Assembly (NCBI GenBank): GCA_017481595.1
Contig: JAFUOY010000007.1
Location: 1 to 51,141, forward strand
DNA: 51,141 nt
From: Clostridia bacterium
GTDB taxonomy: Bacteria > Bacillota > Clostridia > Oscillospirales > CAG-272
Reading direction: 5' to 3'
Within the stretch, counting starts at the first letter, position 1, and each line of letters opens with the position of its first letter. Shown here piece after piece: positions 6,214-7,407 of this stretch. A program made the position numbers and the translations under genes. The notes beneath the pieces were generated by a model. The model was not told the DNA's origin. It worked only from the letters and a program-made list of their open reading frames with translations, and made no database searches.

Positions 6214-6242
6214 TTGACTTTTTGAAGTCATCGTAGTATAAT
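6214..6242 (+). promoter_or_regulatory. Strong sigma-A promoter of the leader/GNAT unit
   Basis: TTGACT (6214-6219), 17-bp spacer, perfect TATAAT (6237-6242). The predicted start near 6249 gives a 5' leader of about 155 nt before the GNAT gene. Confidence 0.85.
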
Positions 6243-6280
6243 CAAAGTATATAGTAAAATCGTAAAAGGGGGTGGACGAA

Positions 6281-6331
6281 ATGACAAACGTAATATCGAT
6301 AAAATCAACTGCCATTTTGTCCGCGAACTGA
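6281..6331 (+). CDS. Putative 16-residue leader peptide
   Basis: A short ORF, MTNVISIKSTAILSAN, preceded by the SD-like run AAAAGGGGGTGG at 6264-6275. It lies about 32 nt from the predicted transcript start. A peptide this short is probably not the functional product. Codons 6-10 (6297-6308) are perfectly complementary to the loop of the terminator hairpin at 6361-6372, which suggests that ribosomes on this ORF control read-through. The ORF has no internal run of one amino acid as in classical biosynthetic attenuators, so a translation- or antibiotic-sensing leader is the better guess. This is inference. Confidence 0.5.
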   Translation: MTNVISIKSTAILSAN

Positions 6332-6352
6332 CAATACGTTATTCCTTGATCT

Positions 6353-6389
6353 AAATGCTCTTGATTTTATCGGGAGCATTTTATTTTTT
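6353..6389 (+). promoter_or_regulatory. Terminator-type attenuator hairpin with antiterminator-capable loop
   Basis: Stem AAATGCTC (6353-6360) with GAGCATTT (6374-6381), a 13-nt loop, then a U-rich tract running into the AAAAGGAG of the downstream gene. Loop bases 6361-6372 (TTGATTTTATCG) are an exact reverse complement of 6297-6308 inside the leader ORF. Because a 12-bp helix cannot sit inside a 13-nt hairpin loop, the two structures should exclude each other. A further 6-bp pairing (6287-6292 with 6335-6340) could form an early hairpin. Confidence 0.65.
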
Positions 6390-6404
6390 AAAAGGAGTAA
6401 CAAA

Positions 6405-6884
6405 ATGATGAAACCAACTGAAAACAAAATCAAAAACGGATCAGATTCAATTCTATCCGTAAAGCAAGCAGATATCAACGATGCGGAATTTGTCGAAAAA
6501 ATATTTTCTCAAAACAAGGTAGCCTTACACTCAGAAGATATTAGTTTAAGCGAATGGAAAGAAATACTTTCTGTAAAGGATGCGGATGAAAAACACTTTA
6601 TAGTGTGTGATGATGCAACACCTGTTGGCTATATGAAAATTAACGGGTTGTTAAGCCAAAAGGAAGCGTGGATATCTATGTTGATTGTTGCAAAAGAATA
6701 TCACAGACAAGGAATTGGTAGCTTTGCCATACGCTATGCCGAGCAATATGTTAAGTCACTTGAGTTTGAGGTGATCAAGATTCAAACGGACTCGGATAAT
6801 ATTCCTGCAATAAGCTGCTACCTAAAGAGCGGATATCGTGTATACGAGAAAAGCAAAAAAATCAGATTTTCTAAAGAACTATAG
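6405..6884 (+). CDS. GNAT-family N-acetyltransferase
   Basis: A 159-residue acetyl-CoA-dependent acyltransferase of the GNAT superfamily. The motif A acetyl-CoA loop is RQGIGS at about residues 104-109, followed by an Asn/Pro and SCYLKSGYRVYEK motif B region typical of the fold. The acceptor is unknown; small molecules including antibiotics, or protein N-termini, are possible. AAAAGGAG lies 8 nt before the ATG. The gene is visibly AT-richer than its neighbours and carries its own promoter and attenuated leader, which fits acquisition by transfer. No resistance family is recognised. Confidence 0.85.
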   Translation: MMKPTENKIKNGSDSILSVKQADINDAEFVEKIFSQNKVALHSEDISLSEWKEILSVKDADEKHFIVCDDATPVGYMKINGLLSQKEAWISMLIVAKEYHRQGIGSFAIRYAEQYVKSLEFEVIKIQTDSDNIPAISCYLKSGYRVYEKSKKIRFSKEL

Positions 6885-6910: not shown

Positions 6911-7131
6911 AAGCCGAGGTGGATATCATCCGCAACTTGTTGCGGTATATCATCAACACAGAGTGTTGAATGGCATCAAGCCGCAGGAAAATGCACGCTG
7001 GCGCGTGATGAGATACAAGGGCGACGCGCCGCCCTTGATGATATCCACGACTGCGTCGTGATGATATGCCAAGCCTACGGGAACCCCCAAAGCTCGGTAA
7101 ACTCGCTTCGGGGAACCCCTACTGCGGCTTG
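6911..7131. repeat. Modular hairpin array 1 (linker GATGATATC)
   Basis: A run of small hairpins, including CGCAACTTGTTGCG (6931-6944), AACACAGAGTGTT (6955-6967), AAGGGCG/CGCCCTT (7017-7036) and ACGAC/GTCGT (7047-7059). They are separated by a repeated linker written GATATCATC in the first half and GATGATATC in the second. The outer arms GTGGATATCATC (6919-6930) and GATGATATCCAC (7037-7048) are exact inverse repeats. AAGCCGCAG near 6978 pairs with CTGCGGCTT near 7122. No gene is seen here. Confidence 0.8.
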
Positions 7132-7177: not shown

Positions 7178-7254
7178 TGGCCTGCCCGAAAGGATTCGAA
7201 CCTTCGACCTTCAGAGTCGGAGTCTGACGCGCTATCCAGCTGTGCCACGGGCAG
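7178..7254 (-). tRNA. tRNA-Arg (anticodon CCG)
   Basis: On the minus strand the acceptor arms CTGCCCG/CGGGCAG pair over 7 bp. The anticodon arm is TCAGA-CTCCGAC-TCTGA with CCG at positions 34-36 (reads CGG, Arg). The T-loop is TTCGAAT, followed by discriminator G and an encoded CCA. The D-stem GCAC/GCGC carries one A-C mismatch. A terminator follows immediately. Confidence 0.93.
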
Positions 7255-7255
7255 A

Positions 7256-7295
7256 TGCAAATGCAAAATGCAGAATGCAAAATGCAGAATGCAGA
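7256..7295. repeat. Short tandem repeat, unit TGCAGAA
   Basis: Several imperfect copies of the heptamer TGCAGAA/TGCAAAA ending in TTAA. The same unit occurs at 17854-17882 and 21433-21468. Confidence 0.8.
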
Positions 7296-7407
7296 ATTAA
7301 CGAAGCATTCCGTGTATATATTTTCACCAAAAGTTTGATGCTAAATTTTGGCTGACTTGAATTATATCACAAAAATGTGAATTTGTAAATAATTATATAA
7401 AAAATAT

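Follow-up and report, generated by a model that had tools for sequence, protein, structure and literature searches.

A conserved leader ahead of an acetyltransferase gene and other, unrelated genes in Clostridia is probably a vmlR-like attenuator

In the erm and cat leaders a leader ORF lies ahead of a resistance gene, and a motif in the peptide or its codons stalls elongation. Attenuation by arrest at the start codon is, to our knowledge, described from single genes such as vmlR. As predicted for the leader analysed here, the vmlR leader of Bacillus subtilis has its upstream ORF (uORF) inside an anti-antiterminator hairpin and an antiterminator that overlaps the terminator, and it is induced by retapamulin and lincomycin, which are expected to arrest the initiating ribosome (PMC9226507, consulted in part); tlrB is mentioned alongside it in the same part as having a drug-inducible leader. 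The toiL-topAI leader of Escherichia coli would be similar in that its uORF answers several antibiotic classes, tetracycline and retapamulin acting at the start codon (PMC12121999, consulted in part). Related attenuators ahead of unrelated genes, as found here, have been described as mobile attenuators (PMC2965389, Genome Biol. 2010, consulted in part).

The window, i.e. the whole stretch of 51,141 nucleotides that was analysed, carries the leader on its forward strand. The promoter (TTGACT-17-TATAAT, 6214-6242) agrees with the consensus at 11 of 12 positions, and transcription would be expected to start near 6249. It is followed by a Shine-Dalgarno-like (SD-like) run (6266-6274), a leader ORF of 16 codons (6281-6331, MTNVISIKSTAILSAN) and an intrinsic terminator, consisting of a hairpin of 13 pairs (6353-6381) and a U-tract to 6389. 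The preliminary description of this DNA had placed all five elements where we find them. The SD of the downstream gene (6392-6397) lies 3′ of the U-tract, and the gene that the leader would control (6405-6884, ATG at 6405) encodes a GNAT acetyltransferase of 159 aa (Pfam Acetyltransf_1, 6e-17).

Within the leader ORF, segment B (6297-6308), which starts 16 nt past the A of the AUG, is an exact 12-nt reverse complement of segment B′ (6361-6372) in the terminator. The complement had been noted before and is confirmed; an exact complement of at least 12 nt between ORF and terminator arose in 1 of 20,000 mononucleotide shuffles of the leader ORF, and it goes beyond chance in that relatives keep the complementarity with altered sequence. 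B′ had been called the terminator loop. The folded loop has 3 nt, and the segment comprises the upper stem together with the loop, i.e. the terminator top. Folding also revealed a hairpin absent from the preliminary description, P1 (6272-6283 with 6313-6324), whose 5′ arm contains the 3′ end of the SD-like run and buries the leader AUG at 6281, and whose loop holds B. By itself P1 is predicted at -15.0 kcal/mol, the antiterminator of 12 + 5 bp (B-B′ plus 6313-6317/6353-6357, the former being part of the P1 3′ arm) at -12.5 kcal/mol and the terminator at -14.5 kcal/mol. Sequence, folding and comparison agree that the three are mutually exclusive and have the layout of a three-way switch. As in a vmlR-type attenuator, the leader start codon is predicted to lie in an anti-antiterminator hairpin, and the antiterminator is an alternative to both this hairpin and the intrinsic terminator, the type III relatives failing the column-wise test described below.

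We consider it probable that the leader is a vmlR-like attenuator, which lets transcription continue into the gene when a ribosome is arrested on or close to its start codon, antibiotics being the probable trigger. If the regions are numbered along the RNA, P1 joins regions 1 and 2, the antiterminator joins 2 and 3 (leader codons with the 5′ arm and top of the terminator), and the terminator, formed by 3 and 4, would end transcription before the GNAT gene. By default the terminator would form, with region 2 either sequestered in P1 or masked by a translating ribosome on its way along the leader. Arrest on the start codon, or one or two codons later, would let the ribosome melt P1 and leave region 2 free, because region 2 begins at the front edge of the ribosome. 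Free region 2 would catch region 3 during transcription, before the 3′ arm of the terminator exists, and RNA polymerase would then read into the acetyltransferase gene. The most likely trigger would be a stress that halts ribosomes during initiation or very soon after it, antibiotics included, which we infer from vmlR and toiL. The core of the preliminary description, a transcription attenuator with a leader ORF and the 12-nt pairing as antiterminator, is supported by our analysis.

Using a covariance model built from nine leaders, all of the window's family, we obtained candidate matches at E ≤ 0.01 in 60 of 395 family genomes, and 26 places in 25 genomes (the window's included) at E < 1e-8. 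Of 391 genomes of the class, 35 had candidate matches at E ≤ 0.01, with four places beyond the window's at E < 1e-8. A DNA pattern made up of the leader start region, a spacer of 18-45 nt and TTGTCC matched at least 117 stretches in genome contigs. Among the 80 match titles listed, about 60 were Clostridia by name and 17 plainly were not; the latter are mostly chance matches, with leaders at two loci, one named Bacilli (L148) and one from Paenibacillus (L162). Through 18 pattern loci, 17 genomes were found to hold 24 copies, at most three each, and a reversed control pattern gave none. One genome (G788) has three leaders, before a kinase-like P-loop gene, a GNAT gene and an S66 peptidase gene (L091, L127, L190). 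At the locus from Paenibacillus ginsengarvi (L162), the same leader layout occurs outside Clostridia before a PF09818 P-loop ATPase.

A crude terminator filter passed 73 of 120 matches; the 47 filtered out comprise some real leaders (locus ends, missed terminators) and otherwise chance matches. A rescan with looser patterns, including the model-found loci, gave 124 rows with an ORF of 13-24 residues, of which 106 were distinct and 94 had a downstream ORF; these patterns miss some true model-found leaders, e.g. L038, L046, L053 and L055. Five of the 106 were dropped (L098, L168 and L183 as chance or doubtful, two as antisense), and 92 of the remaining 101 had a terminator according to the terminator finder and form the main sample. 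The other nine (L050, with an insertion, L054, L058, L100, L102, L153, L159, L175 and L189) are truncated, contain runs of N, or have a hairpin that is weak or absent. Removal of the same three loci from the 94 left 91 downstream proteins. According to terminator sequence the 92 leaders were grouped into type I (42), II (4), III (26), IV (8) and other (12), labels that are our own.

A promoter-like site occurs within 85 nt upstream in 75 of the 92 leaders, against 7 of 256 control windows. The SD-like run is also kept, partly since GGTGGAC is required by the search pattern. The P1 arms are likewise largely fixed by the pattern in pattern-found rows, so their constancy there is not evidence. 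A pattern free of P1 (B and B′ only) found 12 distinct places in the 395 family genomes, of which 11 have the P1 3′ arm and lie in genomes that the covariance model also matched; the remaining one (G052) is a chance match. Judged by sequence, there is a large set of related leaders, most of them from Clostridia, and the genes behind them are of many kinds.

The pairing between leader and terminator was compared with permutations and shuffles, the significance of which is overstated throughout since the rows are related by descent. With this reservation, the own duplex of the 92 leaders averages -16.06 kcal/mol against -10.94 for permuted pairs (sd 0.36; lowest of 2000, -12.20), and 85 of the 92 leaders have p ≤ 0.05 against mononucleotide shuffles of the terminator segment. 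When permuted within groups, none of 2000 permutations was as good as the true pairing in type I, type III or the other group, and 165 and 925 were in types II and IV. We aligned 59 of the 66 non-type-III rows, leaving out L065, L120, L181, L202, L206, L169 and L171. The antiterminator is 92.3 % paired in this alignment and has two-sided changes at 7 of its 12 pairs, with 46 two-sided-change cells against 16.4 in shuffles (0 of 500 as high, inflated by relatedness as above); versions with a slid register reach at most 55.9 % pairing. The terminator stem is altered on both sides at 10 of 13 pairs in 59 aligned relatives. In the 26 type III rows, covariation at fixed columns gave no two-sided changes and 73.6 % pairing, which 488 of 500 shuffles equalled or exceeded. 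We think that bulges shifting the register account for this failure. L186, L202, L096 and type III have quite different sequences that still pair. The preliminary description had proposed to look for covariation and ORF conservation in homologous upstream regions: both hold in type I and similar leaders, and type III fails in the column form. On this comparative evidence, the leader structure is real and conserved.

Regarding the position of the ribosome, the first base of the antiterminator (A of the AUG = 0) lies at +16 in 37 of 92 leaders and at +16 or later in 88. In the vmlR leader, the toeprint of the initiation complex lies 16 nt downstream of the start-codon A (PMC9226507, consulted in part). 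We modelled the ribosome as a mask from -14 to +15 and folded the RNA to an end before most of the terminator 3′ arm, in a model that has no means of showing a pseudoknot between P1 and B-B′. When the AUG occupies the P site, the mean nascent antiterminator has 14.7-16.5 pairs in all five groups; the mean falls over the next codons to at most 0.7 pairs on codons 6-10 and rises again near the stop. In the model, the antiterminator is freed best by a ribosome on the start codon and not by an empty leader. In the window leader, a ribosome on codons 4-14 covers the antiterminator strand. Geometry and modelling support the proposed mechanism of start-codon arrest, and it is by the masking model and the +16 offset that such arrest is predicted to leave the antiterminator free, as in a vmlR-type attenuator. 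In full-length RNA, group means of the terminator exceed those of the antiterminator at almost every ribosome position, apart from cases in type II, which is a small group; control would therefore need to be kinetic for the most part. When a ribosome sits on the AUG of the window leader, full-length folding gives 9.0 antiterminator against 6.0 terminator pairs.

The return of the antiterminator near the stop codon would also fit stalling late in the leader, in which a ribosome on the last codons, past B, blocks P1 and leaves B free for B′. For the window leader, a ribosome on codons 15-17 gives 11.0-13.6 nascent pairs; the tail residues are similar across leaders (AILSAx or AVLSVCD), and erythromycin appears to stall ribosomes at the stop of E. 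coli toiL (PMC12121999, consulted in part). We nevertheless regard late stalling as unlikely. The P1 3′ arm includes the tail codons, whose similarity is accounted for by pairing with the region of the start codon; TTGTCC was a requirement of the search. Moreover, four type II leaders (L051, L052, L056 and L063) read the tail stretch in another frame and so lose the tail, and the offset from the AUG ties the start of the antiterminator to the start codon.

The preliminary description had proposed that an empty leader reads through and that a ribosome over codons 6-10 causes termination, so that the leader would sense loss of initiation. The effect of a ribosome covering B stands in the model. 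The empty leader fares less well, as P1 holds wholly or partly in three of five groups: in the model without a ribosome, mean P1 pairs outweigh the antiterminator in type I and the other group and equal it in type III. The window leader itself is split (8.8 nascent antiterminator pairs against 5.8 P1 pairs), and in types II and IV the antiterminator forms even on the empty leader, which means that P1 is weak there. These cases speak for sensing of initiation loss, but every group has more antiterminator when a ribosome sits on the start codon, and we consider this version quite unlikely.

A U-rich YTTTY stretch between the leader stop and the terminator was found in 62 of 81 linkers (25.5 expected) and is absent from the window linker. 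In the two alignments, the conserved stretch is often ACCTTTTTCATACGGAT in type I and often TATCTTTCTG in type III; judging from its sequence, it is possibly a pause site of RNA polymerase.

Relatives of the GNAT gene were sought in 295 family genomes, of which 98 matched, mostly weakly. All 12 best homologues outside the window's genome, from other genera (L003-L014; ten at 45-63 % identity, two at 40-42 %), have a recognisable leader, including L010, which has an insertion of more than 100 nt in the terminator top, and L011, with two changes in B, one breaking a pair. A motif scan found no leader at the weaker homologues L015-L031. Many of the relatives are tandem GNATs. Among the nine same-genus genomes in this search, the only strong match was in the window's own, and two others matched at E 2e-6 and 4.5e-6. 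Of 20 same-genus genomes covered by the model search, one other (G334, E 1.3e-23) has a leader, which stands ahead of a different tandem GNAT. G241 is the nearest relative when judged by the neighbouring purC (89 %), and its homology to the window ends at about 6140, just 5′ of the promoter, so that the leader-GNAT unit looks accessory. In the window's genome, model and pattern searches showed no second leader; a model match (C7, E 0.0024) is a bare terminator by eye, and a pattern match (C30) has no leader features by eye.

Regarding mobility, leader-gene units that are nearly identical sit within different flanks in different genera (L003-L007), the leader precedes unrelated genes, and up to three exact-pattern copies are found in one genome. 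All this would suit a mobile or repetitive element that carries terminator-like hairpins but senses nothing. Diverged copies, however, keep the promoter, the ORF frame, the position of the stop and the leader-terminator pairing, and we regard a purely mobile element as improbable. Searches for carriers of the leader-GNAT unit gave two weak matches of the window GNAT gene to plasmids and none to phages, one 27-nt match (E 0.4) of the leader to plasmids, no match for the one MFS cassette queried, and no match of the leader pattern in viral contigs.

A GC-rich inverted repeat with a T-run and a core like CCTGCGATAAAGCAGG lies 5′ of the promoter in L003-L007; the flanks differ 5′ of it, which suggests that the repeat may be the edge of a moving cassette. 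In L010 and L050, an insert of more than 100 nt with inverted repeats of its own parts the terminator arms and disrupts B′. Behind the window GNAT gene, at 6915-7080, short inverted repeats (CGCAAC..GTTGCG, CAACAC..GTGTTG) stand among GATGATAT-like words and look, by eye, like an intergenic repeat family. Short tandem AATGCA(A/G)A-like units at 7255-7300 adjoin a tRNA gene (7181-7254, minus strand).

The first ORF of at least 80 codons whose start lies no more than 480 nt from TTGTCC was taken as the downstream gene, one preceded by an SD-like run being preferred. Nine of the 91 assigned genes begin over 200 nt past the leader, two of the three ABC genes among them. The 91 proteins include 57 with Acetyltransf_1, six with GNAT_C and NAT_N and four with GNAT_acetyltran (some of them also with Acetyltransf_1), as well as three ABC, three MFS, two methyltransferase, two histidine phosphatase and two TIM barrel proteins. 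Among representatives we also found an S66 LD-carboxypeptidase, a kinase-like P-loop protein, HAD, phosphorylase and lactonase proteins, an alpha/beta-hydrolase-like N domain and, in Paenibacillus, the PF09818 P-loop protein. Resistance is not an obvious role for some of these (histidine phosphatase, TIM barrel, lactonase, phosphorylase). One MFS protein is weakly like Mef(A) (57.5 of 675 bits). L064 and L186 precede large GNATs whose extra part is alike by eye and recalls a kinase; the Pfam match in L186 covers only residues 333-435 of 456.

The window GNAT matched 33 NCBIfam families at E ≤ 0.1, the best 25 of the 33 all far below cut-off (AAC_3_I at 26.1 of 200 bits). As a candidate aminoglycoside or streptothricin acetyltransferase it falls short of the curated NCBIfam cut-off, and by its sequence no named resistance family can be assigned to it.

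The leader ORF has no in-frame stop before TTGTCC in any of the 92 leaders, a result partly enforced by the filter for 13-24 residues. Frame 2 has stops in 37 of 92, and frame 1 always, owing to the ATGA that nearly every pattern match includes. In 85 of 92 the end of the stop codon falls 9 or 12 nt past TTGTCC. The N-terminal codons vary, with 806, 1442 and 1493 differences at positions 1, 2 and 3 in type I and 260, 382 and 362 in type III, position 3 being no more variable than position 2. The frame and stop thus look conserved and the N-terminal peptide unconserved, which makes a specific arrest peptide unlikely; the conserved nascent peptide of the erm and cat type of resistance leader was not seen. 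An amino-acid attenuator of the trp/his type, sensing charged tRNA, would share the same 1:2, 2:3 and 3:4 layout, but is very improbable, as the preliminary description had already judged for the standard kind, because neither MTNVISIKSTAILSAN nor the variable peptides of its relatives offer a run of one residue, the N-terminal codons vary freely and the downstream genes do not form one pathway.

We found no match to the window leader in Rfam release 15 at gathering score; a relaxed search gave a best E of 0.35 (freshwater-2, 21.2 of 49.9 bits), and none of five matches on 12 related loci lay over a leader. Literature searches, which included leader letters and peptides as queries and had most subscription papers outside their scope, found no description of the leader, and the word acetyltransferase is absent from the text of PMC2965389. 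With somewhat less than even confidence, we propose that the leaders form a widespread, apparently undescribed family of cis-acting sensors for start-codon-arrested ribosomes, which would join unrelated genes of Clostridia in a regulon without a regulator protein. If so, attenuation by start-codon arrest would extend to a family of leaders found before about a dozen unrelated kinds of gene, and the leader would be a sequence tag for genes switched on under ribosome poisoning. The controlled genes would then include unknown resistance enzymes against antibiotics encountered in the gut, with candidates among tandem and triple GNATs, GNAT fusions, GNAT_C acyltransferases, MFS and ABC exporters, methyltransferases and the S66 peptidase, and the tag would help to pick candidate resistance enzymes from uncultivated gut genomes with no need for the drug. 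The covariation and the +16 geometry make this reading directly testable.

Compared with the known systems, the leaders described here share a leader ORF with the drug-inducible arrest-peptide leaders (erm, cat, tlrB) and differ from them in that the N-terminal peptide of the window leader looks unconserved. Mobile attenuators differ in being described as transposon-borne (PMC2965389, consulted in part), and the toiL-topAI leader works through translation and Rho-dependent termination instead of an intrinsic terminator (PMC12121999, consulted in part). The vmlR leader has a three-codon uORF, a separate pause hairpin, a hairpin that sequesters the SD and a single ABC-F gene (PMC9226507, consulted in part), whereas our leaders, compared with it by description, have ORFs of about 15-24 codons, an antiterminator strand inside the ORF from +16 and many unrelated genes. 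With its 16-codon ORF and GNAT gene, the window leader was rejected as a vmlR homologue. According to the modelling it would work like the vmlR leader, without being a member of the vmlR family by ORF or by gene.
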